Shown: piece by piece, positions 1-35,932 of the stretch
Layout: every line of letters begins with the position of its first letter
Position numbering within the stretch: position 1 is the first letter of the stretch
Source: a virus
DNA: 35,932 nt
IMG/VR virus record: IMGVR_UViG_3300029448_000158
Coordinates: 1 to 35,932 of that record
Strand: one strand, 5' to 3'
Notes under the pieces: model-generated
The model's database searches: none
What the model was told of the DNA's origin: nothing
What the model saw: only the letters and a program-made list of their open reading frames with translations
Position numbers and translations under genes: made by a program

Positions 1-35
1 TTGATCCAGCTGAAATAAAGGAGGTGTTCCATTGA
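1..35 (+). CDS. 3' end of a 75-aa unknown protein (partial)
   Basis: The first 35 bases match the last codons of the complete 75-aa gene at 34358-34585. The readable tail is FDPAEIKEVFH, ending at TGA 33-35. The stop overlaps the TTG start of the DUF1289 gene, as it does in the complete copy. The 5' part lies outside the window. Function unknown. Confidence 0.8.
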   Translation, partial: DPAEIKEVFH

Positions 36-343
36 GTAATTATAAAAAAATGAACGTAATAAAAGGATACGCAACTTCGTTAGCTGACAATCCTTGTATT
101 AATATGTGTGGCAATTTGACAGTAGGTGGCAATGCTAGCTGCAAGTATTGTGGTAGAACACAAGAGCAAATAACTCATTGGCAAGAGTATCCAGTAACAG
201 TTAAAAAATTAATTAACTTAGAGAATTACGATAAGCACGCTTCTAGACAAAGAATAACTGCCCTTGCACAAGAGTACGATATATCTTTTGAAACTGCCAG
301 ACAGATATTTGCAGTTGATGGGCATTTAAGTTCTATTAATTAA
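32..343 (+). CDS. DUF1289-like cysteine-rich protein, left copy
   Basis: This 103-aa protein carries the pattern DNPCINMCGNL followed by CKYCGRT and a Trp (residues about 20-50). That matches the small DUF1289 family of proteobacterial proteins with a C-x3-C, C-x2-C cluster, likely metal-binding; the family has no firm function that I can name. The C-terminal half (about 60-103) is helical and HTH-like (SRQRITALAQEYDISFETARQIF), which is inference. The start is TTG at 32. A textbook AAGGAGGT lies about seven bases upstream, and the stop of the preceding gene overlaps it, indicating translational coupling. The next in-frame ATG (50) lacks a ribosome site. Its stop overlaps that of the convergent gene at 340-343. 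The protein is identical to the right copy. Confidence 0.8.
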   Translation: MSNYKKMNVIKGYATSLADNPCINMCGNLTVGGNASCKYCGRTQEQITHWQEYPVTVKKLINLENYDKHASRQRITALAQEYDISFETARQIFAVDGHLSSIN

Positions 344-561
344 CCCTCGCACTCCACAATATCGTTATACAGTTCCCTTCTGATTTCCGTTCTTAATTCT
401 TTTGGAACTTCACTAAGGATCTTTAAATCGCTTATCTTAGGCTTGAAAGTTTTGTGCTTATTAGCTTCATGGTCGGACTCATCTTTCCATCGCCAGCGTA
501 TCTCCTCTGGATGCAGCTCTGATTTAAAATAGAACGAATAACGTAATGGTTCACTCTTCAT
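340..561 (-). CDS. Unknown 73-aa protein, left copy
   Basis: This small charged protein (MKSEPLRYSFYFKSELHPEE...) contains Trp/Arg and Lys-rich stretches and has no domain that I recognise. It is the last gene of the long minus-strand array. It overlaps the convergent DUF1289 gene by four bases (stop against stop) and starts inside the end of the 53-aa gene (11-base overlap). A second copy at 34890-35111 differs by one residue (P to S), with most base changes silent, so it is a translated gene under selection. Function unknown. Confidence 0.75.
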   Translation of the reverse strand: MKSEPLRYSFYFKSELHPEEIRWRWKDESDHEANKHKTFKPKISDLKILSEVPKELRTEIRRELYNDIVECEG

Positions 562-712
562 TGTCTACTTCTAGAATTACATCGCCCAAACGATCCTTTG
601 CTTCACCAATAACCCTTGCGTACTCTATTTGATCTACTGGTACGTTAGTAGCTTCGGTGTGTGCTAGGAATTGCTCTAATCTATTGTGTATGCGTTTTAG
701 TTCTTCTAACAT
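551..712 (-). CDS. Unknown 53-aa helical protein, left copy
   Basis: This protein starts MLEELKRIHNRLEQFL and is predicted to be two helices, with an Asp/Glu-rich C-terminus. The ATG at 710-712 has GGAGAG about six bases upstream. The stop lies at 551-553, inside the first codons of the downstream 73-aa gene. A homologue with several amino-acid changes (A to T, E to Q, Q to P) and a different C-terminus is at 35547-35702. There the extra gene has been inserted directly downstream. Function unknown. Confidence 0.7.
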   Translation of the reverse strand: MLEELKRIHNRLEQFLAHTEATNVPVDQIEYARVIGEAKDRLGDVILEVDNEE

Positions 713-966
713 TTTTTCTCTCCATAAAATTTAATTTTTTCAAGAAACCATCTAAAAGGATTAGAGTCTATTAAATCTCTCCTACGTTCCTTTCTTGGTT
801 CTTGGGTTACTTTACCAGTTCTAATGTCGGTAAAAGTTCTGCTTCCATCATTAAAGACTTTTGTTGATATGTAGTCGTTGTAATGATGATATTTAAGTTG
901 CTTCGCCCATTTATTGTAGGCTTGCAATCCTCTTTGCTTTTCTACTGCGTCTCTAAATTCAGTCAC
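706..966 (-). CDS. Unknown 86-aa basic protein, left copy
   Basis: The protein is rich in Lys, Arg and Tyr (AYNKWAKQLKYHHYNDYIST, then EPRKERRRDL) and resembles a small nucleic-acid-associated protein, but no family is recognised. The start is GTG at 964-966, overlapping the integrase stop (GTGA), with GGAGGAAC just upstream. It is therefore coupled to the integrase gene. The stop overlaps the start of the 53-aa gene by seven bases. A truncated second copy ends the window (35695-35932). Confidence 0.7.
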   Translation of the reverse strand: MTEFRDAVEKQRGLQAYNKWAKQLKYHHYNDYISTKVFNDGSRTFTDIRTGKVTQEPRKERRRDLIDSNPFRWFLEKIKFYGEKKC

Positions 967-2024
967 TTTGTTCCTCCCATAATCATTTTACTAATATTGT
1001 CTGAAGTCTTTTGAGCGTTCTCCTGGTTCTTGTCTGCCATTAAATGCGAGTAGCGTTTAGTGGTTGATGTATCGGAGTGACCTAACAACCCAGCCACTTC
1101 TTCTAAAGTAAATCCGTTGCTTACCATTTGGCTACCAAAGGTGTGTCTCAAATCATGGAAGCGGAAATTAAAAATTTCTGCTTCCTTTAATATTCGCTTC
1201 CACCACTTTTGAGGTGATGATGCAAAACCTATAATTTTTTCTCCATCTTTAGGTAAGTTATCCAAAAGCTGCATAGCTTGATTGGATAAAAAGATCTTAC
1301 GATCTATGCCCTTGTGGTCTGTCTTGTGTTCGGTAAGCGTTAAAACATTACCTTCTAAGTCTGACCACCTGGCTTTTAACAACTCACCAATTCTTGCTCC
1401 AGTAAACAGTAGCAACCAAATTAAAGTGGTTTGCTTTTGTTTGAAGGGTGCTTCTCTATTAAGAACGACAGTCAAGCGTGCCAGCTCTTCTTGAGTTAAG
1501 TAACGCACTCTTTTGTATTCTTTATTCATGCGAAACTTCTTAGGAAAAGGATTGGGTGATAGTTCGCCAATGGATTCCATGTAGTTAAATAATGTCCTTA
1601 GTAAACGCAGAACTGCGTTAGCACGATAAGGCCCATTGTTGTTAGTTAAGTCGGTGTGTAGCGTTCTTAAATCCGAGTATTTTATGGTTCTAATATCTCT
1701 ATCTTTAAGGTAAGGAAAAATAACCCCCTCAAACATCTCTACATCGTGTTTGCGAGACTTTTTTTGTAAACCTATATCGCCACTCCATAATAACCAAACC
1801 TCGCTTATATTGAGTTTCTGTGGCTTGGGTATTTCTTGGGTTTGATTGCGTGTCTCTATCGCTTTGTATCGTGCTTCTTTCCAACCAAAGTTATTGGTTA
1901 GTTCTCCAAGTTTAACCTTGCGTCTTTTACCTTCAATTGTGTAATCCAAGTAAAAGGATTTGCTATAGTCAAACTCTCTAAGGTGTAAGCCACGAACTTG
2001 TTTATCTCTCGTTATGGTTTCCAT
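963..2024 (-). CDS. int: Tyrosine recombinase / phage integrase
   Basis: This enzyme performs site-specific integration and excision of the phage genome. All catalytic features are visible in the 353-aa protein. There is an N-terminal arm-binding part (to about residue 70), a SAM-like core-binding domain (about 75-165) and a catalytic domain. The catalytic domain holds TGARIGEL (Arg I), HKTDHKG (beta-hairpin Lys), HDLRHTF (His-x2-Arg) and LLGHSDTSTTKRYSHL (His and nucleophile Tyr). The length is typical of P2/P4-like phage integrases. An ATG at 2028-2030 is possible, but AGAGGA abuts it directly; the ATG at 2022-2024 has proper spacing and is preferred. The gene lies downstream of three microprotein genes and a non-coding region that may hold attP. 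Confidence 0.95.
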   Translation of the reverse strand: METITRDKQVRGLHLREFDYSKSFYLDYTIEGKRRKVKLGELTNNFGWKEARYKAIETRNQTQEIPKPQKLNISEVWLLWSGDIGLQKKSRKHDVEMFEGVIFPYLKDRDIRTIKYSDLRTLHTDLTNNNGPYRANAVLRLLRTLFNYMESIGELSPNPFPKKFRMNKEYKRVRYLTQEELARLTVVLNREAPFKQKQTTLIWLLLFTGARIGELLKARWSDLEGNVLTLTEHKTDHKGIDRKIFLSNQAMQLLDNLPKDGEKIIGFASSPQKWWKRILKEAEIFNFRFHDLRHTFGSQMVSNGFTLEEVAGLLGHSDTSTTKRYSHLMADKNQENAQKTSDNISKMIMGGTK

Positions 2025-2038
2025 AATCATTCCTCTAG

Positions 2039-2451: not shown

Positions 2452-2526
2452 TTTTTCTCTCCTAAATTATTATTAAATTTCCTCAACTATGTAGTGAATG
2501 AAAGTGTTGTTTAATTAACTACAATG

Positions 2527-2532: not shown

Positions 2533-2533
2533 T

Positions 2534-2577: not shown

Positions 2578-2610
2578 TATACCAATGTTTTAGGGGAGTT
2601 GGAAAGCTGG

Positions 2611-3024: not shown

Positions 3025-3063
3025 AACTATTCAAATTTCTTTTCCTTGTTAGACATGGGGTTT

Positions 3064-4665: not shown

Positions 4666-4668
4666 TAT

Positions 4669-6939: not shown

Positions 6940-6942
6940 AAT

Positions 6943-9048: not shown

Positions 9049-9054
9049 TCACTT

Positions 9055-9399
9055 TTAACCGATTGTTTTTGTAACTGATGTTGGTGTAATCTTTTTTGCT
9101 ATCTGTCCATCTAAGCCTGATTTAAGTTCAGTAACTTCATCAGCACCCATAGCAGCTTCTACCCAACCTTGTACTTTAGCAGCGTCTAAACTTCCAAAGG
9201 CTGTGAAGCTAGAGATACTATCTGTATCTAAGGCTTGGCTTCCATAAACACTTGCTGTCCAGTAGTTACCTTTTGAATCTTTGTTAGTGCCATCTGTTGC
9301 TGTTAGTCTCCAATGTACGTTGTGCACGACATCAGCGTTGCTGTCTTTTGTTGGGTAAGTGTCAACTGTACTTACATCCCATGCGTATGAAATTGCCAT
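9055..9399 (-). CDS. Small conserved tail-region protein (114 aa)
   Basis: The protein starts MAISYAWDVSTVDTYPTKDS, with HNVHWRLTATDGTNKDSKGN and a helix-rich middle (LDAAKVQGWVEAAMG). I have seen this type as a short hypothetical protein beside fibre genes in marine phages, but I cannot name its role. It sits four bases after the S74 fibre stop and six before the hub start. It could be a fibre adaptor or accessory. Confidence 0.6.
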   Translation of the reverse strand: MAISYAWDVSTVDTYPTKDSNADVVHNVHWRLTATDGTNKDSKGNYWTASVYGSQALDTDSISSFTAFGSLDAAKVQGWVEAAMGADEVTELKSGLDGQIAKKITPTSVTKTIG

Positions 9400-9403
9400 A
9401 TCT

Positions 9404-10720: not shown

Positions 10721-10732
10721 AATTCTTATCCT

Positions 10733-11506
10733 TTATGCTGCTTCTGACCAATCGGTTGATGGGTTTGATTGTTCAGACCATGTTGTAGTTGAAACTGTCT
10801 GTTCCGTGAAGGTGGTTGTCGAAACAGTTTGCGTCTCCCATTTTATGCTACCAATCGCAGAAAAACTAGAGGTTTGTGCGATGGTTGATGCGCCAGCATA
10901 TATTATGCCAGCCAAAGCTGTTACGTTACTGGTTTCTTCTATCGTTGAAGCAGCTCCAATTATAAATTTACCAGTTGCAGTAAAGCCTGAAGTTTGAGCA
11001 ATCGTTGATGCTCCAACTTTAATAAGTACGCCAGCTGAAGTAAATCCGCTGGTTTGTGCAATCGTTGCTACACCATCAAGAACAATTAAACCTGTGGCTG
11101 TAAAGCCTGATGTTTGCGCTATTGTGCTTGCACCTAACTTAATAACGTGACCTGTTGAGGTAAAGCTAGACGTTTGTGCTATCGTGGCTTCTCCACGATC
11201 TATTTGTCTGCCTGTAGCTGCAAACCCTGAAGTCTGAGCTATGGTTGCAGATCCAAGTTTTACAATTCTTGCACTTGAAGCAAAACCAGACGTTTGAGCA
11301 ATGGTACTCGCACCAAGTTTTACAATTTCTCCTGTAGAAGTAAATGCAGAAGTTTGAGCGATTGTTGCTTCACCTCTAACAAATTGTATTCTTCCAGTAG
11401 CAGTTGCTCCTGAAGTCTGTGCTATTGTTGCAGACGCAAAGTGATATGTGGGAGTGCCATAATCAGCCTTCCCATAATCATATTGACCGTAGCCAATACT
11501 TGCCAT
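10733..11506 (-). CDS. Virion protein built of ten 20-residue repeats
   Basis: The 257-aa protein has a Tyr/Gly-rich head (YGQYDYGKADYGTPTYHFA), ten tandem 20-residue repeats (about residues 24-223) and a tail with three shorter repeats (TVSTTTFTEQ, TVSTTTWSEQ, NPSTDWSEAA). The repeat unit is close to ASTIAQTSGFTATG followed by IVKLG. Such regular alternation of Thr/Ser and hydrophobic residues predicts a beta-solenoid or a chain of small beta modules. It lies between the fibre gene and a small head-tail gene, so a fibre or decoration role is likely. No catalytic motif is seen. Confidence 0.65.
   Translation of the reverse strand: MASIGYGQYDYGKADYGTPTYHFASATIAQTSGATATGRIQFVRGEATIAQTSAFTSTGEIVKLGASTIAQTSGFASSARIVKLGSATIAQTSGFAATGRQIDRGEATIAQTSSFTSTGHVIKLGASTIAQTSGFTATGLIVLDGVATIAQTSGFTSAGVLIKVGASTIAQTSGFTATGKFIIGAASTIEETSNVTALAGIIYAGASTIAQTSSFSAIGSIKWETQTVSTTTFTEQTVSTTTWSEQSNPSTDWSEAA
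10838..11437 (-). repeat. Ten tandem 60-bp coding repeats
   Basis: The DNA repeats with a 60-bp period, each unit encoding ATIAQTS or STIAQTS near its start. Codons differ between units (third positions have drifted) while the peptide core is kept. The array is therefore old and held by selection on the protein. Only unit nine is strongly diverged (STIEETSNV). Confidence 0.8.
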
Positions 11507-11509
11507 TGA

Positions 11510-11905
11510 TTAAGCTAGTGTTATATCTAAGTCACCAGCATCAAATCTGAATACGTCTCCGCTTGCTACTGTCTTAGATGCAGTTAATGCAGCCCATGCC
11601 ATTAAGTTACCACTTGATGCAGCATCAAATACTCCAACGTGGGTAACTGTACCCCATGCACCAGTTGCCGTTACAAACTCTACTGCTGCACCATTAGTTG
11701 CAGTTGTAGGGGATGTTCCGCTTACTGTCATTGCTGCCATACTTTTTCTAGCGTAAGAACCGCCAGAACATTCTGTTCCACCACCTGTATCTGAAGGTGC
11801 TGCTGTGAATAAACCAACATATAGAGTGCCTGGTGCTGTATAAGCACTTCCACCGAATACATGGTCTAAAACTTTATCTTCTAAATAATCGCTAAATCCA
11901 GCCAT
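11510..11905 (-). CDS. Conserved phage structural protein (131 aa)
   Basis: It starts MAGFSDYLEDKVLDHVFGGS, with APGTLYVGLFTAAPSDTGGG and a beta-rich C-terminus. The combination of an N-terminal helix with a following beta sandwich recurs in short phage virion proteins next to fibre genes; I recall no assigned function. It precedes the repeat protein and follows the head-tail adaptor, so a baseplate-like or fibre-attachment role is possible. Confidence 0.65.
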   Translation of the reverse strand: MAGFSDYLEDKVLDHVFGGSAYTAPGTLYVGLFTAAPSDTGGGTECSGGSYARKSMAAMTVSGTSPTTATNGAAVEFVTATGAWGTVTHVGVFDAASSGNLMAWAALTASKTVASGDVFRFDAGDLDITLA

Positions 11906-11914
11906 TTTTTACTC

Positions 11915-12568
11915 CTATGAATTACTTGCGTAATATGTTTTTGTTCTTGCCTTATGTCCATAAGTCCGAACTCGTTTAATTAAAGAACCATCTGAATACT
12001 TAGCTTTTTCATTAGCATCTTCTAAATCAACTAATGCTTTTAAGTAAGCAGCTTCAAACATTGGTACTCGTTCATCTTCCATTAAAAACACGCTTGCGTG
12101 TTTTAAACATCCATACAAATAAATATCAGGATGTGAAGTAGATAACCAATTTGTTGTGTTACTAGAACTCAATGCTGGTATCTTTGAATAGTATACCAAT
12201 TCTAATGTCGAGCTAGTAGATGGTGTTGGTATTAATTCCAAAGTTCCATCAACAACAGAAAAATAAGAGGGCGCACCTGATATATTATCTTGTGCGTTTC
12301 TAAATACGTCTCCTGTTTCTATTGATACTTGAAATAAGGGCCTGTATGTTCCTGTCTTAATCTTTACGTTAATAGCTTCAAGCCAATCAGTCGGTAAAGT
12401 TAAATATTGTTCATCAGCAGTAGCATCAGATCTTTTAATCATGTCTCTGTGCCTGATGTTACGATTAAATTCTGCTTCTGCGTTGTCTATAAAAGTATCG
12501 TAATGACTAGTTAAATCTGTTCTGTTTAACCAATTTCCTATTGCTGTTTTTAATTCATCGTAAGTCAT
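11915..12568 (-). CDS. Head-tail adaptor, P22 gp4/SU10-like
   Basis: The 217-aa protein begins MTYDELKTAIGNWLNRTDLT and includes FIDNAEAEFNRNIRHRDM, then LTLPTDWLEAINVK. The helical start with a beta insert (SYFSVVDGTLELIP) and a helical tail is typical of the adaptor ring that docks under the portal in P22- and SU10-like phages. Its ATG overlaps the preceding stop (ATGA). Position after capsid and before fibre genes agrees with this job. The family name is from memory of the pattern. Confidence 0.65.
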   Translation of the reverse strand: MTYDELKTAIGNWLNRTDLTSHYDTFIDNAEAEFNRNIRHRDMIKRSDATADEQYLTLPTDWLEAINVKIKTGTYRPLFQVSIETGDVFRNAQDNISGAPSYFSVVDGTLELIPTPSTSSTLELVYYSKIPALSSSNTTNWLSTSHPDIYLYGCLKHASVFLMEDERVPMFEAAYLKALVDLEDANEKAKYSDGSLIKRVRTYGHKARTKTYYASNS

Positions 12569-23966: not shown

Positions 23967-25499
23967 TTAACTAATCCGTATAATACGGCTCTTCAATGGC
24001 TTCTTGAAAGAGTAGCCACTAAAAGAAAGTGATCCAGAGAAGTTGGCGGCATCTGAAGCCATTGTTAATGCTAATGCGTCTGCTAAATCAGGACTTTTTA
24101 TGCCCCTTCTTTTCATGGACTCTTTGCTTTCTAATTTTATTTTACCACTACTTGTATACTCGTAGCTAGGTGAAACTAATTGAGCCATTAAATCATCATC
24201 TGGTGGTAGTCTGCAATCCCTTTGTGCTAACCAGTCTTTAATTTTAAACCACAGTTCCGCACGCAAGTTCAAATAGTTTTTATTAGTCGAGGGAGATTCT
24301 GAAACATTGATACCTCTAACTGGCAAATCCAACTCTCGCAATCTATCAACCACACCACTTCCCAAACCAATAACATCCACCAATATTTCTTGTGGTTTAT
24401 TTTCAAACGTGGCGTTGTCGTATTCAGCTTTAACCGCTCCGCACAGTTGCATTAGATCCATAGACTTATAAGTTTGTATTTCTAAAACAGTATTACCTTG
24501 ACGTTTACAAAGCGCAGAATTATCGCCACCAAATCTCGCTACATCCAATCCCCATAAAATAGCTTGCTCGGTGGTTAGCGATACCTCTCTGTCAATCGCT
24601 GCTCTTACCAAGTCCATTGGAATAACTGTATCGTCATCTGATTTAGGGAACTCACCCAATACCTCAACTCTGGATACAGTAGAGTCCTCTCCGTATTGGT
24701 CGAGCATTTGTTGGAATACTTTTTTATCTGTGCCTTCTACTTCTCTACTGTCTATTTGAGCGTTGTTCCAAAAAGATTTAGCACCATGAAAGCTGTCATA
24801 GAAAGGGCCTTGATTTCTTCTAGGGTTGGAGAAAGCGAACCAAAATCTATTTTCGGTGGGTTCTGAAAAGAACCCCTCCGCTACTGAATAGATAGGAGCT
24901 GGAATACCTGATGCTTCATCCATGATTAAGCACACGCCATAGTTACTGTGAATACCAGCAAAGGCGTCTGGGTTTTCTTCCGACCAAAGTTGTGCTTGTC
25001 CGTAGTAATAGCCTGTGTCTATTTGTAGGTCTTTTTTAAGACTGGCTTCAAACCAATCAACAGGTTTAAGCGTGGTTGCAGTTTTATTAAACCAATGTCC
25101 ATTAATGGATAGCGTTAGCCACTTACCAAGTTCCGCCCATGTTCTTGAGCGCAGCTGTTGTTCGGTGTTAGCAGTTACAATTACAGTCGATCCGAGACGA
25201 GTCGATAGCATCCACAATATAATCCACGCAACCAAAGCGGATTTACCGATTCCACGACCAGATGCAACTGCCAACCTAAACATATTGGGATCAAACTTCC
25301 CAGCGTTCTTTTGAATATGGTTTGCCAAATCTCGTAAAATTTTCTCTTGCCACTTGCGAGGGCCTTTAAATCCTTCGAGGGGTGTTCCTTCTTGATCCCA
25401 GGGGAAAACGTATTTTACAAAGTTAAGGGGATCGTCTTTTATATTGGCAGTCCATAGATCTGCCATTAACTCTTCTTCTTGTTTTGCGCTGTATTTCAT
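23967..25499 (-). CDS. terL: Terminase large subunit
   Basis: This is the packaging motor and nuclease. The ATPase domain has a Walker A-like ASGRGIGKSALV (about residues 78-89), Walker B VCLIMDEASG (about 187-196) and a coupling motif in FAFSNPRR. The RNase-H-like nuclease begins with ILWGLDVARFGGDNS (Asp), has EILVDVIGLGSGVVDRL and ends with DLADALALTMA (Asp). The 510-aa length is typical. AGGATAAA precedes the ATG. It lies directly behind the PAPS-reductase-like gene, which separates it from the small subunit. Confidence 0.95.
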   Translation of the reverse strand: MKYSAKQEEELMADLWTANIKDDPLNFVKYVFPWDQEGTPLEGFKGPRKWQEKILRDLANHIQKNAGKFDPNMFRLAVASGRGIGKSALVAWIILWMLSTRLGSTVIVTANTEQQLRSRTWAELGKWLTLSINGHWFNKTATTLKPVDWFEASLKKDLQIDTGYYYGQAQLWSEENPDAFAGIHSNYGVCLIMDEASGIPAPIYSVAEGFFSEPTENRFWFAFSNPRRNQGPFYDSFHGAKSFWNNAQIDSREVEGTDKKVFQQMLDQYGEDSTVSRVEVLGEFPKSDDDTVIPMDLVRAAIDREVSLTTEQAILWGLDVARFGGDNSALCKRQGNTVLEIQTYKSMDLMQLCGAVKAEYDNATFENKPQEILVDVIGLGSGVVDRLRELDLPVRGINVSESPSTNKNYLNLRAELWFKIKDWLAQRDCRLPPDDDLMAQLVSPSYEYTSSGKIKLESKESMKRRGIKSPDLADALALTMASDAANFSGSLSFSGYSFKKPLKSRIIRIS

Positions 25500-25502: not shown

Positions 25503-26255
25503 TTATCCTGGTTGTTTCATACAAAATATTCCACATTCAAAATCATAATTTTTTAACGGTCTGCCTTTTGCGTTCAAGGGCAATGTGTCTAAATAAATCC
25601 TTTCCCCTTTATGTCTTACAAGTTTAGCTCCTATTTCTCTTGATTGTTTGGCTCTTCTCTCAAAAACCTCTGGGAAAGTTTTTCGTACTAAATTCCAATA
25701 AGTAGGAGACGTTGCTTTTACACAACCAATGCAATTAGCATTAGGATAACCAAGTTCGTATATTTTAGGCTTTTCTATGCCAGCTTCGTTTAATATATCA
25801 AAGCAATCTTGCTTCGTTATATTTTCATCTACCAATACAGGAATAAGGTTGTCCTTTTCTACCTCTTTAAACCTTATCGCTCTTTTTTCTTCATCAGCAG
25901 TAAAACCAAGCACTAAATAGTCTGTAATATTTTTAGCTTCCCATTCTTGTCTTGCGTTCTTTTTTAAATGCAAAGTGCATGGCGCACCAGAAACTCCAGA
26001 CATATACTGCCTAACATCCCAAACTGTTTCAGCTGAACAATCTGGAAACTTGGAGTTTATAGCGTATTCGATTTCTACTCCCAACCACTTTTCAACGTCT
26101 TTTAAAAATCTTTGATTATCTTCATGCTCTTCTACAACAGGGTTATTAACAACTCTTATATTGTTATCTTTGCCATATTTCTCTAGCGTAATCTTAGCCG
26201 CCACAGCTGAAGCAGCACCGCACGAAAACCAAACAGTTATTTCTTTATCTCTCAT
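25503..26255 (-). CDS. PAPS-reductase-like PP-loop protein with Cys motifs
   Basis: This 250-aa protein belongs to the adenine-nucleotide alpha hydrolase superfamily of PAPS reductases and DndC-like enzymes. VWFSCGAASAVAAKITLEKY is the PP-loop in its phage form (S-C-G-A-A-S, residues 9-14). APCTLHLKKNARQEW is the conserved Cys-Lys block. NANCIGCVKA and FECGIFC supply further Cys for an Fe-S cluster. Such genes are frequent in phages, and their reaction is unproven there: sulfate assimilation, nucleic-acid thiolation and other roles are proposed. The gene overlaps the YozE-like stop by four bases and sits inside the packaging operon. Confidence 0.75.
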   Translation of the reverse strand: MRDKEITVWFSCGAASAVAAKITLEKYGKDNNIRVVNNPVVEEHEDNQRFLKDVEKWLGVEIEYAINSKFPDCSAETVWDVRQYMSGVSGAPCTLHLKKNARQEWEAKNITDYLVLGFTADEEKRAIRFKEVEKDNLIPVLVDENITKQDCFDILNEAGIEKPKIYELGYPNANCIGCVKATSPTYWNLVRKTFPEVFERRAKQSREIGAKLVRHKGERIYLDTLPLNAKGRPLKNYDFECGIFCMKQPG

Positions 26256-27877: not shown

Positions 27878-27985
27878 CTATTTCTTTTCACCCTTCTTTT
27901 TGGGTTCTTTCTTCTTAAATATCCGATCAAATTCCTTGTCGAACTTCTCTTTATTGAAGGGCCTGTAGTCTGATCCTTTACTCAT
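27878..27985 (-). CDS. 35-aa charged microprotein
   Basis: It reads MSKGSDYRPFNKEKFDKEFD and ends RIFKKKEPKKKGEKK. The ATG overlaps the methyltransferase stop by eight bases, with AGGAGAG at proper distance inside the methyltransferase end. Similar tiny ORFs (SDYRPFN...F) occur in other phages as I recall; no function is known. Its end borders the iterons. Confidence 0.6.
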   Translation of the reverse strand: MSKGSDYRPFNKEKFDKEFDRIFKKKEPKKKGEKK

Positions 27986-29279
27986 CTATCTCTCCTAAAA
28001 TAGCTAAAGCAATCCAGTATGCCACTTGTGGAACTATGGCATTACCGAGTGCTTTTAAACGATTGGCTCTGTTCTTTGGATTGGTGGTAACTCTGTCTAT
28101 TCCTCGTTCCCAAGATCCGTCCACCCATGAGGATACCCCATCAGACCTTCCACCCAGGTAGGATTCAAAGCTCCTGATTTCTCCGAAACCACCATCGAAA
28201 GGTTTAACTGCTTCCCCTTCTCCGCTCGTCTCTTGATCGCTGGAGTTGATAAGTTCCCCCTGTCTCGATTGTCCGAGTGTGCTGGAGTTGGCCACATCCT
28301 CATATGTACTTCCGCTGTTAATGTTGGTGTTTTTCTCGTGAACTCCGCTGGATATGCTCCCTCCTTCGATAAGTGAGCTGTCGGAGTCGGCCACATATTC
28401 TGTTCCGCTTCTTGAACTGCTACCGTTAGAGGTTTCCCCCCTTGTGCGTAGTTCTTCGTTCTCTCCGTTGCTGAATCCGTTGTTGGTGTTGGCCACATCT
28501 GTACTTCCTGACTCAATGGAGGTTTCTGTCCTCCTCCCTTGTGTTTCTTTCTCGGCTTCATTATGTTGTTGGAATCGAAAGCTGTTGGTGTACTCCACAT
28601 ATTCGGTTTCCCTGACTTCTGTATCTCCTCCGTTGGCCAGAACTTCACGAACCGATCCAGACTCACGCTCTTGCCTGTCATTGGATTCATTGTCTCCTTG
28701 CTCGTTGACTCCCTTTCTATGTGATCGCTCGCTGTTGGAGTTGGAATCCTCTTGCGTGTCTTGGGCGATAACCCAGACTCTATCTCTGCGGTGGTGGGCG
28801 TTGACGGAAGAAGCTGGAAGTACAACCGCCCTTGCGGAGTAGCCTTCGCTTTCCAAGTCAAACAACACATTGTCGAGTCCCAATGTGATGTGACCAGCAA
28901 CGTTTTCTGCCACGATAAACTTGGGTCTTTTCTGTTTAATAATTTCAAGCATGAACGGCCAGAGGTGGCGGTCGTCCTCCTCGCCTTTGCGCTTCCCAGC
29001 TTGACTGAATGGCTGACAGGGGTATCCCCCTGTGAGGATGTCACATTCAAGGTCTTGCCATTTTCCTTGTCCCCAAATAGGTCTTGTTGATTCATTTCTT
29101 ACTAACTCCGTAATGTCATTATAAATTGGAACACCGGGAAAGTTCTTTTTCAAGACCTTCTGTGGATATTCCTCTATTTCACAAAAGGCTACAGTCTCTA
29201 TCTTTTGAGTTGAATCAAAAGCCAAACTGAAGCCACCGATACCGCTAAACAGGTCTATATGTTTAAGTTTACTCATCAT
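27978..29279 (-). CDS. dcm: C5 cytosine DNA methyltransferase
   Basis: The 433-aa enzyme transfers methyl groups to cytosine in DNA, probably to resist host restriction. Motif I is DLFSGIGGFSLAF (about 9-21), motif IV GGYPCQPFSQAGKRKG with the catalytic Cys (about 88), motif VI VAENVAGH and motif VIII AHHRRDRVWVIA. Motif IX is RLKALGNAIVPQVAYWI near the end. Between VIII and IX (about 175-385), where the target-recognition domain should be, the sequence is a hydrophilic Glu/Ser/Asn/Gly-rich string with repeats such as VANTNN and VADSDS. That part coincides with the nested ORF in another frame. No restriction partner is seen. Its start overlaps the primase-helicase stop by 11 bases. Confidence 0.85.
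   Translation of the reverse strand: MMSKLKHIDLFSGIGGFSLAFDSTQKIETVAFCEIEEYPQKVLKKNFPGVPIYNDITELVRNESTRPIWGQGKWQDLECDILTGGYPCQPFSQAGKRKGEEDDRHLWPFMLEIIKQKRPKFIVAENVAGHITLGLDNVLFDLESEGYSARAVVLPASSVNAHHRRDRVWVIAQDTQEDSNSNSERSHRKGVNEQGDNESNDRQERESGSVREVLANGGDTEVRETEYVEYTNSFRFQQHNEAEKETQGRRTETSIESGSTDVANTNNGFSNGENEELRTRGETSNGSSSRSGTEYVADSDSSLIEGGSISSGVHEKNTNINSGSTYEDVANSSTLGQSRQGELINSSDQETSGEGEAVKPFDGGFGEIRSFESYLGGRSDGVSSWVDGSWERGIDRVTTNPKNRANRLKALGNAIVPQVAYWIALAILGEIDE
28097..29095 (-). CDS. Nested WPTPT-repeat protein inside dcm (alternate frame)
   Basis: A 332-aa ORF lies wholly inside the methyltransferase gene, on the same strand in another frame. It starts MNQQDLFGDKENGK, with GGAG ten bases upstream. 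It holds CLTWKAKATPQGRLYFQLLP (about residues 78-97), then five to six spaced motifs (IPTPTASD, MWSTPTAFD, MWPTPTTDS, MWPTPTAH, MWPTPAHSD), and ends LNPTWVEGLMGYPHGWTDL. I recall proteins with this order of motifs next to or over phage C5 methyltransferases, so it looks like a real family and not a shadow. Trp and Pro sit in a regular pattern while the dcm frame is low-complexity. A function in target recognition is a hypothesis; expression is unproven. Confidence 0.65.
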   Translation of the reverse strand: MNQQDLFGDKENGKTLNVTSSQGDTPVSHSVKLGSAKARRTTATSGRSCLKLLNRKDPSLSWQKTLLVTSHWDSTMCCLTWKAKATPQGRLYFQLLPSTPTTAEIESGLSPKTRKRIPTPTASDHIERESTSKETMNPMTGKSVSLDRFVKFWPTEEIQKSGKPNMWSTPTAFDSNNIMKPRKKHKGGGQKPPLSQEVQMWPTPTTDSATERTKNYAQGGKPLTVAVQEAEQNMWPTPTAHLSKEGAYPAEFTRKTPTLTAEVHMRMWPTPAHSDNRDRGNLSTPAIKRRAEKGKQLNLSMVVSEKSGALNPTWVEGLMGYPHGWTDLGNEE

Positions 29280-31128
29280 CCTCCCAGGGATTACCCTTCA
29301 CATACTCATTACGAGTTTCTTCTAACAATTCTAAAACTGCATCTTTTCTAAAGAGCGTCTTAGTTCTCATGTCCGTTTGCGAATTGGATTTAACCATTGC
29401 AAATCGCACCAATCTATTTGGATCGTAGTCCACACCATATCTCGTACACACAAACTCTGCTTCTTTCTCTGGCCCGTGATACATAACCGCTGCCCATCTC
29501 TGTGAGTCCACTAGCGAGCTTGCTCCTCTGATGCTGGCTCTATGAAGCATTGGATCATCACTCTTACCTAACGAAACCTTGCTCATGTGATGTATGGAGA
29601 TAACACTACAAGCTAATTTGGAAGCCATACTTGCACAATACTGCCCCCACACTTGCCCTACCTCGTTTGAATTGACTGGCGCACTTATCATCGCTTGTAA
29701 TGGATCAAATACAACTAGAACTGGATTGTGAGACTTTATCTCCTCTAATAATTCAAGTGCGGTTGGTGTAAAACCCAACCCACCGCTATCTTCTTTAACC
29801 AATGTCAAAGGTTGTGGTAAATCAGGCACAGTCACACAAAATAAATCGTGGAGTGCGTCTTTCCTTGTGTTGCTTGGATCTATTAACGTCAATCTACGCC
29901 ACAACTCGTTTCTATCATCCTCTGCGTTGACAAAAACCACGTTCCCTCGCTGTGTAACGTCTTTGCCCATCCATTGACCACCACTAATGCAAGCCATAGA
30001 CAGCTTGAGCATCTCCATACTCTTACCGATACCACCCACCGCTGCTAAAACGCCTGGAACTGCCATAGGAATTAAACCATCTATTAACCACTCACGCTCT
30101 GGAGGAGAGGAGGAGAGATTACGAACAGCAAATTGACGGATACCTATGACAGTCCTTTGTATTAATTCGTTCCTTACATATTCAATACCATGTTCTAAAT
30201 ACGCATCGTTCCAATCACCTTTCTCTGGTGGTATGCGTAATATTGCGTTGCTAACTGCCTTTGCAGTCTCGTTAGCGCATTTCTCACCAACGCCATTGCT
30301 ATCATTATCCAACGCTAAAATAAGTTTCGCCTGACTAACCTTTCTAATCTCACTACACGCTTCTAAACAAAAGGGAGCAGCGAACACTACTGCTACTGGC
30401 TTATTAGTTGCTTCCGCAACACTAACGCCAGTTGCGTAACCTTCGGTCACATATATTTCTGACAAATTGGGTAAGGAATTGTGGTCGCATCCAATTAAAA
30501 AGATACCACCCTTAACTTTGGAGCAAGTGGCAAACTTTTTTTGCCCTTTAGGTGAAATGGTCTGTAATGATTCGATCTCCCCTGATATACTGCGAATCGG
30601 TATCAACAGCTCGTTTCTGTTGTTAATTTTTAACCCTACATTTTTAACTTTTTTGGAGACTAAATATTTATGTTCCTTGCTAAGCTCATGTCCTTTTTCA
30701 AATCTTTCACTACACTCTTTTGCGACCTCTTCTTGCCTTTCTTTGCGATTAGCTTTTGCCCTCTCATTAGCTATTTGCACTTGTCTGGAGAGTTCGGCTT
30801 GCTGTGAAGGGGATAAATTGGATACCGCTTTGTTAGACCATTTCCAGGTTAGATTAGATCTCCAATTACCATAAACACAGACCATTAACTGATCCGTTTG
30901 AAAGAAAACGTAATAACCAGAACGCTCACCTGAACGATCTGCCCTTACGCTTGTCGTGGCTACTACAGGTACTCTCTGTAGCTCACCAGTCGTGTCTATG
31001 TAATCTACTCTTAATCCGTCATTGTTCATTTGCCGAACTAGGTCGGTAATATCACCAGCTGTGTTCGGAAAAGCTATATCATCAGAAAGAGCAAGACCAC
31101 CTTCAAAGTAATCTTCTACGTCTTTCAT
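29269..31128 (-). CDS. Primase-helicase (TOPRIM plus RepA-like ATPase)
   Basis: The 619-aa protein joins two activities. Residues about 60-330 form a primase-like part with the TOPRIM motifs EIYVTEGYATGVSVAEAT (Glu) and KLILALDNDSNG (Asp-x-Asp). Residues about 345-600 form a RecA-like hexameric helicase with Walker A AVGGIGKSMEM, Walker B VLVVFDPLQAM and SVISIHHMSK. No zinc-binding domain is seen at the N-terminus. It would unwind and prime at the origin for host polymerases, since no phage polymerase is found. The N-terminus DVEDYFEGGL matches that of the SSB-like protein. TAATG overlaps link it to the upstream gene. Confidence 0.85.
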   Translation of the reverse strand: MKDVEDYFEGGLALSDDIAFPNTAGDITDLVRQMNNDGLRVDYIDTTGELQRVPVVATTSVRADRSGERSGYYVFFQTDQLMVCVYGNWRSNLTWKWSNKAVSNLSPSQQAELSRQVQIANERAKANRKERQEEVAKECSERFEKGHELSKEHKYLVSKKVKNVGLKINNRNELLIPIRSISGEIESLQTISPKGQKKFATCSKVKGGIFLIGCDHNSLPNLSEIYVTEGYATGVSVAEATNKPVAVVFAAPFCLEACSEIRKVSQAKLILALDNDSNGVGEKCANETAKAVSNAILRIPPEKGDWNDAYLEHGIEYVRNELIQRTVIGIRQFAVRNLSSSPPEREWLIDGLIPMAVPGVLAAVGGIGKSMEMLKLSMACISGGQWMGKDVTQRGNVVFVNAEDDRNELWRRLTLIDPSNTRKDALHDLFCVTVPDLPQPLTLVKEDSGGLGFTPTALELLEEIKSHNPVLVVFDPLQAMISAPVNSNEVGQVWGQYCASMASKLACSVISIHHMSKVSLGKSDDPMLHRASIRGASSLVDSQRWAAVMYHGPEKEAEFVCTRYGVDYDPNRLVRFAMVKSNSQTDMRTKTLFRKDAVLELLEETRNEYVKGNPWEDDE

Positions 31129-31358
31129 TAGAACGGCACTTCAGATTCTTTCTTTTTGTACGCTCTAATAATTACGCTAATAAATTTAGATACTGTACTT
31201 TTATCCCATTTGTTTAAATGAGGGCCATGTTCCTTAATAAAGGGAGCAGCTTGTTTGATTGCGTAATCTCTACAATCATCACTAACCACAAAACCATTCT
31301 CATTTTTCTCTGGCAATTCTCCTCTAAGTCCATTCTTTAATAAGTCTAAGTGACTCAT
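31128..31358 (-). CDS. Unknown 76-aa protein, possibly longer with Zn motif
   Basis: From ATG 31356-31358 (AGGAG eight bases upstream) it reads MSHLDLLKNGLRGELPEKNE and is helical and charged. The frame stays open upstream to a TGA at 31494, and the extra codons encode CGICFRGCSG and IGACS. Joined to the CSMSH at the start, these look like a zinc ribbon, so the real protein may begin further up. ATG 31407-31409 would add 17 residues; no ATG, GTG or TTG precedes the first Cys codons. It lies between the SSB-like and primase-helicase genes. Confidence 0.6.
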   Translation of the reverse strand: MSHLDLLKNGLRGELPEKNENGFVVSDDCRDYAIKQAAPFIKEHGPHLNKWDKSTVSKFISVIIRAYKKKESEVPF

Positions 31359-31462
31359 ACTGCACGCTCCTATTGCTTTTGAATTTCTATCACTTGGATC
31401 TCGATACATCAGACCTGAACATCCACGAAAGCAGATGCCACAAGCTGATGGTCGAGTATCTC

Positions 31463-31933
31463 TTATTGATCCCAGGGGTTCTTCTCGGAATCTTCACTAA
31501 CAGGCTCACTAGCTTGTGGTTTAGTATCTTTTGCAACAGTCCAACGCTTTATGTCGTTATACCCATTCTTATTAATACTAACTGTAAACCCAGCTTGCTT
31601 ACCAATCAGTTGATCCCAGCTAGTAAGTGAACCAATCTCTGTTGCGCTCATTAAACGCATCAGATCTTGTTTACCCCACTCAACGTAGTCTGCGTTGTTG
31701 TCAACCAAAGTAATATTTTTCCAAAGGTGTCTGCCCTTGCTTTGTTCACTTGTGATTTCAAACTCAATCTTTAAATGTTCTCCATCTGACCAAGATTCAG
31801 GGTTAATTTCAGCAGAAGCATTGACGATCTTGCCAATGTATTTGCCCTCTGGAACTGGTGAATTATCGTAAGTAGGTGTTTCCATACCTTCTGTAGTTAA
31901 TCCATCTTTGAAGTAATCTTTCACATCACTCAT
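31463..31933 (-). CDS. ssDNA-binding protein, DUF669-like
   Basis: The 156-aa protein carries VPEGKYIGKIVNASAEIN, then GEHLKIEFEI, GRHLWKNITL and an OB-like strand pattern ending FTVSINKNGYNDIKRW. That is the DUF669 pattern, a phage SSB-like family. The acidic tail (SEPVSEDSEKNPWDQ) resembles SSB tips that recruit partners. The first residues, DVKDYFKDGL, are nearly repeated in the primase-helicase. It overlaps the ATPase stop by four bases, within the recombination-replication block. Confidence 0.75.
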   Translation of the reverse strand: MSDVKDYFKDGLTTEGMETPTYDNSPVPEGKYIGKIVNASAEINPESWSDGEHLKIEFEITSEQSKGRHLWKNITLVDNNADYVEWGKQDLMRLMSATEIGSLTSWDQLIGKQAGFTVSINKNGYNDIKRWTVAKDTKPQASEPVSEDSEKNPWDQ

Positions 31934-32685
31934 TTTTTATCTCCGTTTTTCATTGAATTTAAAATGGCATCCCAAGAGAAATCTATTTGCTCTTCCATAC
32001 CATATCTATTTTTTGCCAACCAAGCTGGCTTCTCTTGTGTCCATAGTTTCCTCTCACCGCTAGATACAGCTCGCTTTTCTTGCTTACCCATCTTGCCTTG
32101 TGACTTCACTAAGTTCACATCATAGTTACCAAACATTAATATATCGCTATGCTCTTGCAGTTTCGCTGAAGCTGCCTTGTGCAAAGCAATCTCATAACGA
32201 TCATAACTCTCTCCGTCTGGCGGATAAAAAGTTCTGATATTTGTATGAGCAAGTTGCATGATAATCATGTTCTTTTCGTTTCTAAGTTGGTTAAGATAAT
32301 CAATATATTTTTGCCAAAGCAAAACAGCTAACTTATAGCCTTTGCCATAGGCAATGTTATCTATCGAATCTACCTTCTCGTTTTCACAAACCTTTTGCCA
32401 TATAAGAGCTTCCAACCAATCTAGGCTGTCAAGCGCTACGGCTTTATAGTCGTGTTTTTCGTTTATTAACTCATGTAATGCAGACATTACATCTTCATAA
32501 GATTTAGCTAATGGAAAGTGAGGTACATCTGCCACCCCAGCTAATCCATCTTCGGTTTGAATGAAGATCACACCTGGTATTGATGCAGCTAGTGTGGTTT
32601 TACCCAATCCAGCAGTTCCATGAATTAAGATACGAGGGGGTTTCCTCTCTATCTTCTCTTTTATATCACTAAGTTTAAAAGCCAT
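31930..32685 (-). CDS. RecA-fold ATPase, AAA_24-like
   Basis: The 251-aa protein has Walker A ILIHGTAGLGKTTLAA (about residues 20-35), Walker B YKAVALDSLDWLE (about 75-87), sensor-like MIIMQLAHTNI, and a C-terminal IDFSWDAILNSM. This matches the phage nucleotide-binding AAA_24 family (Sak4-like), single-strand annealing or recombination ATPases. AAGGAGGA precedes ATG 32683-32685; a start 14 codons earlier lies in the previous gene. It sits between the coiled-coil gene and the SSB-like gene, as in other phage recombination cassettes. Confidence 0.8.
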   Translation of the reverse strand: MAFKLSDIKEKIERKPPRILIHGTAGLGKTTLAASIPGVIFIQTEDGLAGVADVPHFPLAKSYEDVMSALHELINEKHDYKAVALDSLDWLEALIWQKVCENEKVDSIDNIAYGKGYKLAVLLWQKYIDYLNQLRNEKNMIIMQLAHTNIRTFYPPDGESYDRYEIALHKAASAKLQEHSDILMFGNYDVNLVKSQGKMGKQEKRAVSSGERKLWTQEKPAWLAKNRYGMEEQIDFSWDAILNSMKNGDKK

Positions 32686-32695
32686 ATTTTCCTCC

Positions 32696-32950
32696 TTATT
32701 GCTTGGTTTCTGTAATGATTTCAGCATCTTCAGCGTCTTTATCAGACACCGCTAATGATGATTCTAATGCAGCTATCAAACGATCTTTGTGATCCAATCT
32801 CGTTCCTAGCTGAAGATCTAAACTTTCAATTTCAGGTTGTAATGTTTTGAGCATTGTCAACATTCGAGCTTCATTTTTATTTAAGTCAGCTTCAAAATAT
32901 TCCTTATCGTTGATAGTTAATGTGGGTTTGGGTTCTTGGTTATCACTCAT
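32696..32950 (-). CDS. Coiled-coil protein, DUF6447-like (84 aa)
   Basis: From ATG 32948-32950 (AAAGGAGG at ideal distance) it reads MSDNQEPKPTLTINDKEYFE. A helix follows (ARMLTMLKTLQPEIESLDLQ) and an acidic tail. The strand-helix order fits what I recall as DUF6447, a small phage protein of unknown role. It overlaps the nuclease gene by eight bases. Confidence 0.65.
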   Translation of the reverse strand: MSDNQEPKPTLTINDKEYFEADLNKNEARMLTMLKTLQPEIESLDLQLGTRLDHKDRLIAALESSLAVSDKDAEDAEIITETKQ

Positions 32951-33659
32951 TGTTTCCTCCTTTATTATGTAATGGACAAGTGAATTGTTTGGCTGGACAA
33001 AATCTACAATGATCGCCAGCAAAAGGTTCAGGTTCTAATTCAAAACAGCGTTCAGCTGCTTCTTTTAGATCGTTCAATCCCCAATGTAGTAACCCCATCA
33101 AGTCGTGCTTCTGCGAGCTAATCTTAGGATTAACTTTTGGTTGCACTATGGTTGTGATTACATCTTCGGTTTTATCCGATCCAAATTCTTGTAGGCAAAG
33201 CAACATATATATTTTTAATTGAGAACTGCTTGGTTCTACTTTCCACTTGCCTGTCTTTAAATCTATTATTTCTATGTTGTTGCCATAGATGATAGTTGCA
33301 TCCGCAGTTCCAAATAACTCTGGATGTATTTCATCGCTTGAGCGATACCTTCTTTCTAAATAAAGTTCGCCTTTGGTTTCTTCTAATCTTTTCTCTATGT
33401 AGTCGGTGTAAGTTTTGATGATGTCTATATCTTCTTGTTCAATAATAATCTTATGACCTTGTACTTTATGAACTGTGCCTAAAAATTCTTCAGGCGTACT
33501 TCTTTTGTATAAAAATGATTCCGCAGCTTCGTGATTGATTGTTCCCCTAAGTGCTGCAACGTGGGTGGGTTGTTCTTCTGATATGCTAGATAGGTAAGGT
33601 GATGCTGGACAATTTGACCAGCGTTCAAATGATGATGGCGCAATACTACTATGATCCAA
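32943..33659 (-). CDS. Cas4/RecB-like PD-(D/E)XK exonuclease (DUF2800-like)
   Basis: The 238-aa nuclease shows SSFERWSNCPASPYL (first Cys), RGTINHEAAE (motif I His), ELFGTADATIIY (Asp), IEIIDLKTGKW (D-x-K core) and QLKIYMLL. GDHCRFCPAKQFTC at the C-terminus completes the four-Cys Fe-S cluster as in Cas4/AddB types. It would resect DNA ends for the neighbouring ATPase and SSB-like proteins. The start is TTG 33657-33659, supported by GAGGAGAG five bases upstream and the absence of an ATG nearby. DUF2800 is named from memory. Confidence 0.8.
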   Translation of the reverse strand: MDHSSIAPSSFERWSNCPASPYLSSISEEQPTHVAALRGTINHEAAESFLYKRSTPEEFLGTVHKVQGHKIIIEQEDIDIIKTYTDYIEKRLEETKGELYLERRYRSSDEIHPELFGTADATIIYGNNIEIIDLKTGKWKVEPSSSQLKIYMLLCLQEFGSDKTEDVITTIVQPKVNPKISSQKHDLMGLLHWGLNDLKEAAERCFELEPEPFAGDHCRFCPAKQFTCPLHNKGGNNE

Positions 33660-33687
33660 TGTTTCTCTCCTCTAATCTCCTTTCGTT

Positions 33688-33882
33688 TTAAATTTCTATG
33701 AACTCCGTTTGCTCTTGTTCATACGCTTCAACATCATCAAGGCGATAATAAACTCTGCCAGTATCTTTGCGTTTTATATAACGTGGCCCTTTCTTTGGTT
33801 TAGCGGTTCTCCAATTACAAAGTGTGCCTTTGCTCATTTTAAACCTTTGTGCCAACTCACCTGTACTTAACATCTTGACCAT
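33688..33882 (-). CDS. Excisionase-like HTH protein (64 aa)
   Basis: MVKMLSTGELAQRFKMSKGT then LCNWRTAKPKKGPRYIKRKD and VYYRLDDVEAYEQEQ is the winged MerR/HTH_17 type seen in excisionases and AlpA-like regulators. It is the first gene after the strong minus-strand promoter, so a lysis-lysogeny or excision role is likely. AGGAGATAGGA precedes the ATG. Confidence 0.7.
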   Translation of the reverse strand: MVKMLSTGELAQRFKMSKGTLCNWRTAKPKKGPRYIKRKDTGRVYYRLDDVEAYEQEQTEFIEI

Positions 33883-33934
33883 GTTCCTATCTCCTAAAAA
33901 TGTTTTTGATTTTATTCGGTGTTAATTATTCTAA

Positions 33935-33964
33935 ATTTTAATTTATTCTAGTTAATCGTGTCAA
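33935..33964 (-). promoter_or_regulatory. Strong sigma70-type promoter for the minus-strand array
   Basis: On the minus strand TTGACA (33964-33959) is followed after 18 bases by TAAAAT (33940-33935). A perfect -35 with a 4/6 to 5/6 -10, in very AT-rich DNA, about 55 bases before the excisionase-like start. It should drive the early and replication genes. Confidence 0.7.
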
Positions 33965-34045
33965 CCGATTATCAAAAATTAATTAAAATTAGTATAAATT
34001 ATGAACTCCTCATTTCTCTCTGCTATATCTAACAACAAAAGAAAG

Positions 34046-34051
34046 TATAAT
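34046..34051 (+). promoter_or_regulatory. Candidate -10 box of the plus-strand operon
   Basis: TATAAT lies 23 bases before the ATG of the DUF3310 gene. No clear -35 is seen at 17 bases (CTATAT). It faces away from the minus-strand promoter, so the two transcription units diverge from 33883-34073. Confidence 0.45.
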
Positions 34052-34073
34052 GCAAGAATGTTTATGAACTAAA

Positions 34074-34358
34074 ATGAACATGGGTAAAAGGATCAATGAT
34101 ATAACTCCTGAAGAGTGGGATTCTCTAAAATGGGGCAATTCTAAAGCAACCGAGATCCAAGTCGGAGGAGATCACTACGCTAAACAAAAGGAATACCAAC
34201 CAGCGGAAGTGATACAAAAACTAAAACTGTCCTGGTGTAAATCAAACGCAATCAAATATATTTTACGAGCTGGCAACAAAGGGCCAGCCACAGAAGATCT
34301 AAAAAAAGCAATTCATTATTTAGAACTTGAGCTAGAAATAGAAGCGGAGAAAACATAA
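34074..34358 (+). CDS. DUF3310 phage protein (94 aa)
   Basis: VGGDHYAKQKEYQPAEVIQK, then SNAIKYILRAGNKG, and EDLKKAIHYLELEL are the hallmarks of DUF3310, small phage proteins sometimes called nucleotide kinases without proof. They are common among nucleotide- and replication-related phage genes. It is the first gene of the plus-strand operon and its stop overlaps the next start (TAATG). ATG 34074 or 34080 is possible. Confidence 0.8.
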   Translation: MNMGKRINDITPEEWDSLKWGNSKATEIQVGGDHYAKQKEYQPAEVIQKLKLSWCKSNAIKYILRAGNKGPATEDLKKAIHYLELELEIEAEKT

Positions 34359-34585
34359 TGCCACCATTTATTGTTGCTGATGATTCTTACATAGATTTCT
34401 TAATTTTTTGTTTTATGAAATGGGTAGGAGAAATAAACGACCAAACAACTACAGTTTCTTTTCGTGATTATTTTGAAAATCCAGTAAGGAAATTAAAACT
34501 TGAAAAAGAATTTACTGCTAATTCAGATGGCGAACCTTTAGACATTTGGTTTGATCCAGCTGAAATAAAGGAGGTGTTCCATTGA
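34358..34585 (+). CDS. Unknown 75-aa protein
   Basis: It starts MPPFIVADDSYIDFLIFCFM and has a hydrophobic first half, with an acidic tail (DIWFDPAEIKEVFH). No family recognised. It is linked by TAATG to the DUF3310 gene and its end covers the ribosome site and start of the DUF1289 gene. The last 35 bases recur at the window start. Confidence 0.6.
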   Translation: MPPFIVADDSYIDFLIFCFMKWVGEINDQTTTVSFRDYFENPVRKLKLEKEFTANSDGEPLDIWFDPAEIKEVFH

Positions 34586-34893
34586 GTAATTATAAAAAAA
34601 TGAACGTAATAAAAGGATACGCAACTTCATTAGCTGACAATCCTTGTATTAATATGTGTGGCAATTTGACAGTAGGTGGCAATGCTAGCTGCAAGTATTG
34701 TGGTAGAACACAAGAGCAAATAACACATTGGCAAGAGTATCCAGTAACAGTTAAAAAATTAATTAACTTAGAGAATTACGATAAACACGCTTCCAGGCAA
34801 AGAATAACTGCCCTTGCACAAGAGTACGATATATCTTTTGAAACTGCTAGACAGATATTCGCAGTTGATGGGCATTTAAGTTCTATTAATTAA
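34582..34893 (+). CDS. DUF1289-like cysteine-rich protein, right copy
   Basis: The 103-aa protein is identical to that at 32-343, although the DNA differs at seven third-type positions (for example TCG/TCA, AAG/AAA, TTT/TTC). Purifying selection is thus directly visible. TTG start, AAGGAGGT and overlapping upstream stop are preserved. Role unknown; see left copy for motifs. Confidence 0.8.
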   Translation: MSNYKKMNVIKGYATSLADNPCINMCGNLTVGGNASCKYCGRTQEQITHWQEYPVTVKKLINLENYDKHASRQRITALAQEYDISFETARQIFAVDGHLSSIN

Positions 34894-35111
34894 CCCTCGC
34901 ACTCCACAATATCGTTATACAGCTCCCTTCTGATCTCCGTTCTTAATTCTTTTGGAACTTCACTAAGGATCTTTAAGTCGCTTATCTTAGGCTTAAAAGT
35001 TTTGTGCTTATTAGCTTCATGGTCGGACTCGTCTTTCCATCGCCAGCGTATCTCCTCTGAATGCAGCTCTGATTTAAAATAGAACGAATAACGCAATGGT
35101 TCACTCTTCAT
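34890..35111 (-). CDS. Unknown 73-aa protein, right copy
   Basis: It differs from the left copy by one residue (HPEE to HSEE). Stop-to-stop overlap with DUF1289 is kept. Its start lies within the last 11 bases of the inserted 149-aa gene, exactly as in the left copy it lies in the 53-aa gene. Function unknown. Confidence 0.75.
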   Translation of the reverse strand: MKSEPLRYSFYFKSELHSEEIRWRWKDESDHEANKHKTFKPKISDLKILSEVPKELRTEIRRELYNDIVECEG

Positions 35112-35550
35112 CTTTCACCCCTACAACGTAGCCATGAATTAATTTTATATTAGTAAATCCTTGCTCCCTAAGTGCTTTGGCTTCTTTGTTCCTTTTGGTC
35201 AACTTAGAGTATTTTCTTTGTCTTTCTTCTATGTTAAGTCTGTTATGCGGAGAAGCATATTCAAGGTTGTAGATTGTTACGTCACCACGATTTCCAACCC
35301 ATCCAATTTCAACATTATTTTTATCTCTAAGTATCCAACCACCACTTTTTTGTGTTGATTTTCTTCTAAAGGGTTTGCTAATAAAAGGAGAGTATAACCA
35401 TTCAGTATTTTTACGTTTTTCATTAAATAAATTTACTGCTTGCTTATAGGTGTGTTTAACAGTTTTATCTATAACTGTGCCTATCTCTATTCTTTTCCTT
35501 TTATATACGCTTTTATGTGGATAAATTACTTTTATTGGTAATACATTCAT
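35101..35550 (-). CDS. Inserted 149-aa unknown protein
   Basis: This gene is present only in the right copy. The protein is basic (VYKRKRIEIGTVIDKTVKHT; KPFRRKSTQKSGGWILRDKN) with a possible beta core and a DVTIYNLEYASPHNRLNIEE segment. No HNH, GIY-YIG or other nuclease motif is clear. GGAGGAGG precedes the ATG and the start overlaps the upstream stop (ATGA). It therefore slots cleanly into the operon. It may be a recently gained accessory gene. Confidence 0.7.
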   Translation of the reverse strand: MNVLPIKVIYPHKSVYKRKRIEIGTVIDKTVKHTYKQAVNLFNEKRKNTEWLYSPFISKPFRRKSTQKSGGWILRDKNNVEIGWVGNRGDVTIYNLEYASPHNRLNIEERQRKYSKLTKRNKEAKALREQGFTNIKLIHGYVVGVKDEE

Positions 35551-35702
35551 TTTTCCTCCTCCAAAATTACATCTCCCAAACGATCCTTTGCTTCACCAAT
35601 AACCCTTGCGTACTCTATTGGATCTACTGGTACGTTAGTTGTTTGGGTGTGTGTTAGGAATTGCTCTAGTCTATTGTGTATGCGTTTTAGTTCTTCAAGC
35701 AT
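35547..35702 (-). CDS. Unknown 51-aa helical protein, right copy
   Basis: Homologue of the gene at 551-712, from ATG 35700-35702 (MLEELKRIHNRLEQFL) with GGAGAT upstream. The C-terminus ends EEEK and differs from the left copy, where the inserted gene is missing. An upstream start would add ten residues inside the neighbouring gene and is less likely. Confidence 0.65.
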   Translation of the reverse strand: MLEELKRIHNRLEQFLTHTQTTNVPVDPIEYARVIGEAKDRLGDVILEEEK

Positions 35703-35932
35703 TGTTATCTCCATAAAATTTAATCTTTTCAAGAAACCATTTAAAAGGATTAGAGTTTATTAAATCTCTCCTACGTTCCTTTCTTGGCTCTTGGGTTACT
35801 TTACCAGTTCTAATGTCGGTAAAAGTTTTGCTACCATCATTAAAAACTTTTGTTGATATGTAGTCGTTGTAATGATGATGTTTAAGTTGCTTCGCCCATT
35901 TATTGTAGGCTTGCAATCCTCTTTGCTTTTCT
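35695..35932 (-). CDS. Unknown basic protein, right copy (5' end cut off)
   Basis: Homologue of the 86-aa gene at 706-966, with a different C-terminus (YGDNNA instead of YGEKKC) and a few substitutions (K for R, N for D). The start lies beyond the window end. Function unknown. Confidence 0.7.
   Translation of the reverse strand, partial: EKQRGLQAYNKWAKQLKHHHYNDYISTKVFNDGSKTFTDIRTGKVTQEPRKERRRDLINSNPFKWFLEKIKFYGDNNA

Follow-up and report, generated by a model that had tools for sequence, protein, structure and literature searches.

Diverged ends of a metagenomic phage contig are two versions of one locus, best explained by an assembly path through two strains

The two ends of the IMG/VR record IMGVR_UViG_3300029448_000158, positions 1-943 and 34551-35932, represent one and the same locus in two alternative forms. 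The window, meaning the whole stretch of DNA that was analysed, is the entire record: one contig of 35,932 bp, classed as linear. The best explanation, which we consider highly likely, is a population-level assembly path that runs over a circular phage map and passes through two strains. This was one of three causes listed in a preliminary description of the sequence, whose view that the window joins two related genotypes is supported, the ends being evolved alleles of a single locus. Their divergence is ordinary metagenome strain diversity and not a new kind of phage end, and in all probability the record covers a complete phage genome map, its diverged overlap being hidden at the ends.

The Phage Encoded by the Window

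The window encodes a temperate phage that is podovirus-like. A terminase, portal, major head protein, primase and Sak4-like annealing protein are recognised, and a DUF2800/PD-(D/E)XK nuclease, a C5 methylase and an M15 peptidase are also encoded (see Table 1 for the main features). Uncultured Manatee Spring phages, phiM5 and Microcystis phage MJing1 are among the phage records that best match the portal and capsid, with identities below 50% throughout, and a near DNA search of positions 1-12000 against phage records gave no match. Phage DSL-LC05 (OR003940.1) has a circular record, like the window's map, with a related large terminase (46%) and M15 peptidase, and it also carries a gp10-type packaged-DNA stabilisation protein and DNA-transfer proteins. 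However, only three window proteins find a match within the 26-kb stretch of this record that was fetched, and the capsid and portal have none there.

A PAPS-reductase-like gene (25503-26255) and a C5 cytosine methylase gene (27978-29279) are present in the window and absent from a close relative, L004. At both sites the flanks in L004 are 97-98% identical to those of the window and are joined directly. The two genes would thus be accessory, gained or lost as whole units.

Table 1. Features of the two versions of the locus and of neighbouring or diagnostic genes in the window.
Feature	Coordinates	Strand	Remarks
Left version, block 1: tail of 75-aa ORF, DUF1289 gene (32-343 +), 73-aa ORF (340-561 -)	1..561		14 mismatches to 34551-35111
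53-aa ORF of the left version, immediately next to the 73-aa ORF; "empty" cassette state	551..712	-	L004-like sequence minus 115 nt
Left version, 86-aa ORF adjoining the integrase	706..966	-	9 mismatches in 226 nt between left and right copies
Tyrosine integrase, next after the locus	963..2030	-	Pfam PF00589, E 3e-23
Large terminase	23967..25499	-	PHROG 2; best phage-record matches 46-49% identity
Right version, block 1: DUF1289 gene (34582-34893 +), 73-aa ORF (34890-35111 -)	34551..35111		Alignment to left end
149-codon ORF, right version only	35101..35550	-	C-terminal ~40 residues stand alone as a 41-44-aa ORF in L004-L007
Right version, block 2: 51-aa ORF and part of 86-aa ORF, reaching the contig end	35565..35932		19 mismatches in 368 columns to 575-943

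One Locus in Two Versions

Alignment confirms that 1-943 recurs at 34551-35932, with the coordinates originally given, and resolves the repeat into two blocks. The first (1-561 against 34551-35111) aligns without gaps and differs by 2.5%, while the second (575-943 against 35565-35932) contains one 1-nt gap and differs by 5.2%. Over both blocks, 33 of 929 aligned positions differ (3.6%). The divergence of "about 2.5%" first reported therefore holds for the first block and is an understatement for the overlap as a whole. There is no exact terminal repeat in the window, since its ends differ at these 33 positions and by a cassette. The longest exact match between them is 95 nt, with no common k-mer for k of at least 96, and the exact match at the contig start is 78 nt long.

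The DUF1289 gene, whose Pfam match (PF06945) scores 26.4 bits, just under the 27-bit cut-off, encodes an identical protein in both copies. All seven of its differing sites are silent, as had been noticed from the sequence alone, an excess with P = 9e-5 when the silent fraction expected of random changes is 0.26. The neighbouring 73-aa ORF has six silent changes and one replacement (P = 0.002). Because the DUF1289 changes are all silent, the differences are evolved alleles and not noise. On the far side of the cassette spot, the adjoining small ORF has a different 3' end in the two versions, so that it measures 53 aa on the left and 51 aa on the right.

Variation and Apparent Recombination Among Strains

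Related viral contigs were retrieved with DUF1289 and the integrase as queries. Within block 1 the left end of the window differs from L004, L005, L006 and L007 at 6, 19, 24 and 23 sites, respectively, and the right end at 12, 23, 27 and 24, as compared with 14 sites between the two ends. The left end thus has fewer differences from L004 than from its counterpart at the other end of the window. Since the gap between the ends falls within the range seen between contigs, it is ordinary divergence for this group. In a four-gamete test, 66 of 153 informative site pairs fail, with six haplotypes, which suggests that recombination occurs at the locus. With variants common to other contigs, a divergence within their range and these failures, the ends look like segregating alleles of a population.

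Four states have been seen of the cassette spot that lies between the 73-aa and 53-aa ORFs, and this spot, beside the integrase, changes between close relatives. It is empty in the left version of the window, holds a 41-aa ORF in L004 and a pair of ORFs of 82 and 44 aa in L005-L007, and is occupied by the 149-aa ORF in the right version. Because the L004 sequence, once 115 nt between a pair of CATC repeats are taken out, matches the left end with 1 mismatch in 110 nt, the empty state looks like the result of a loss or deletion, rather than the right state being a simple gain. The "one gained gene" of the preliminary description is therefore correct in that the extra ORF occurs on the right only, and its gain is better read as one of several cassette states. 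As a point against the two-strain path, neither the left nor the right cassette joint turned up in a second record when viral contigs were scanned for exact matches, although nearly identical records may be missing from that set. No match to the 149-codon ORF was found in Pfam, PHROG, NCBIfam or PDB, and its single-sequence structure model (mean pLDDT 47.7) is too poor for a structure search. Its residues 110-149 are 95% identical in L028. The long protein may have arisen by fusion, or the short ORFs of the relatives may be what is left of it.

The integrase carries a C-terminal patch of its own, at about 1075-1215 in the window (approximately residues 272-320), which includes the HDLRH motif. 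This patch resembles a more distant relative (L021, 85% identical) and not the nearest relatives L016 or L024. A recombinant origin of the patch, which lies in the catalytic domain, is likely.

A Circular Map

The right end of the window continues into its left end in about ten independent related records. L004, L005/L016, L006, L007, L008-L010 and L012-L014 run without interruption from the side of the window at 29-35 kb via the DUF1289 locus into the integrase, and onward to the structural genes. On the right side of the window, the alignments cover window positions 29273 to 35219 for L004 and 29276 to 35111 for L005. Every related locus having the DUF1289 gene holds exactly one copy of it, and the gene order on both sides of that single copy corresponds to the right flank of the window followed by its left flank.

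A more distant relative, IMGVR_UViG_3300020440_000003 (G011; also L059/L060), is a 32,578-bp record opened inside the major capsid gene, with ends that overlap by exactly 77 nt. Across the window's joint, its order of exonuclease, integrase and nuclease is the same as in the window. Direct terminal repeats of 55, 77 and 99 bp are likely to be assembler k-mer remnants of circular templates (CheckV; PMC8116208), and G011 looks like the complete circular map of a phage, 32,501 bp in length. The record itself is classed as linear despite its terminal overlap. Since relatives have the two ends of the window side by side and G011 can be closed to a circle, the window is one turn of a circular map plus a self-overlap. 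The length of the map is about 34,550 bp when the left version is used or about 34,990 bp with the right one, for a self-overlap of 0.94 or 1.38 kb, respectively.

How Two Alleles Would Come to Lie on One Contig

The following course of events can be proposed. Many strains of a podovirus-like temperate phage would coexist, and the overlap falls in a highly variable place of their map, the small-ORF cassette spot beside the integrase. Assembly would enter via the allele of one strain, circle once, and exit via that of another. To an assembler with a larger final k the two ends would look unrelated, so that the circle would not be closed and the alleles would not be collapsed. As no exact word longer than 95 nt is common to the ends, the alleles would have been neither collapsed nor taken for the overlap of a circle, which would have left the record in the "linear" class. 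We infer both that the joining took place in silico, rather than within one DNA molecule, and what the assembler's k would be. The 78-nt match at the contig start is near the usual assembler k of 77 without being equal to it, and at k = 77 the ends of the window would have 21 k-mers in common. Given this match, the contig ends are by themselves no proof of a graph fork. Reading the assembler's k from the ends was tried and set aside, as the 78-nt match hints at a value of about 77, while the 95-nt inner match requires at least 96 if no graph node is common.

Of the other readings, the one that survives best is a recombinant concatemer of two co-infecting strains, packaged by headful, which would leave one linear molecule with allele A and allele B at opposite ends. 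P22 packages its DNA by headful, and the large terminase of the window also matches that of the P22-type record BIS08P22 (38% identity over 90%), so that headful packaging might be supposed here too. The excess of 1,382 nt on a map of about 34.6 kb (4%) fits the size of a headful redundancy, and the haplotypes of the locus appear to recombine. Terminal-redundancy heterozygotes of T4 are, moreover, classical genetics. They likewise present two alleles at the ends of one genome, although theirs is a single physical molecule, while the window is an assembled contig. They also qualify the premise of the preliminary description that a single genome with terminal redundancy would have identical ends, which is right for a clonal phage. 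A literature search on terminal-redundancy heterozygotes yielded nothing usable. Against a heterozygous virion, circular permutation would put the ends anywhere, and bulk assembly would lose the ends of any one virion. The overlap coincides instead with the cassette hot spot, where assembly forks are expected, and none of the data require one molecule. We therefore regard this reading as unlikely. The mixed concatemer from co-infection that was originally put forward, although possible, has found no supporting evidence and is not needed. There is a slim chance that the contig is a real molecule from a wild headful virion, heterozygous in its terminal redundancy for two diverged cassette states of the integrase-side spot. 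If so, it would show directly how co-infecting strains recombine, at the moment of packaging.

Tandem prophages had also been suggested; two related strains would then lie in the chromosome of one host, with the window spanning a complete unit and running into a second, and the integrase gene does adjoin the locus. This is very unlikely, however, as no host flank was recognised in the window and no tandem unit in its relatives. The window contains no tRNA and no recognised host gene, there is no second unit, and each related record has a single copy of the locus. A non-systematic look at the unit boundary revealed no att site, and no integrated close relative was found among 84,980 species represented by one genome each. 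The matches in this survey were two terminases, one 75% identical, on a 19-kb contig from a Pelagibacter bin, and the other at 48%. The Pelagibacter-binned contig, L061 (CAJQJC010000020.1), carries structural genes of the window's phage group. The genes recognised in the 15.9 kb that were fetched are all phage genes, none of them host, and L061 is possibly a hint to the host or possibly a misbinned virus.

A real duplication, in a phage genome of more than 36 kb with two paralogous copies of the locus, would account for both copies being on one contig, and it is highly improbable in view of the single copy in every related record, the flank order around that copy and the closure of G011 at 32.5 kb. 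The chance that one copy was altered by sequencing or assembly error is practically nil, since this is refuted by the silent excess (13 of the 14 changes in block 1), several variant bases recur in other contigs, and the last 40 codons of the right-only ORF are present in relatives.

Concluding Remarks

The diverged ends are real, and their cause is ordinary. Metagenome-assembled circular or permuted contigs with direct terminal repeats of k-mer length likewise consist of one turn plus a self-overlap (CheckV; PMC8116208), and G011 is a textbook case. Unlike theirs, the overlap of the window extends over about 1 kb and its two alleles differ by 2.5-5.2%, apart from the cassette, so it is missed by exact-repeat tests. 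Microdiversity is described as hindering the assembly of full viral genomes (PMC8018248), and strain microdiversity and hypervariable islands at which viral assemblies break similarly place within-population variants and gene-content islands at the contig end (VirION2, PMC8018248; COBRA, PMC10914622). Those contigs usually stop, whereas that of the window continues into a second allele.

Circularity checks miss this record because its ends are the alleles of different strains. It should be trimmed to one allele, and not taken for a phage whose ends are unusual or duplicated. For this group of phages, the integrase-side cassette spot is marked as a place where strains differ.
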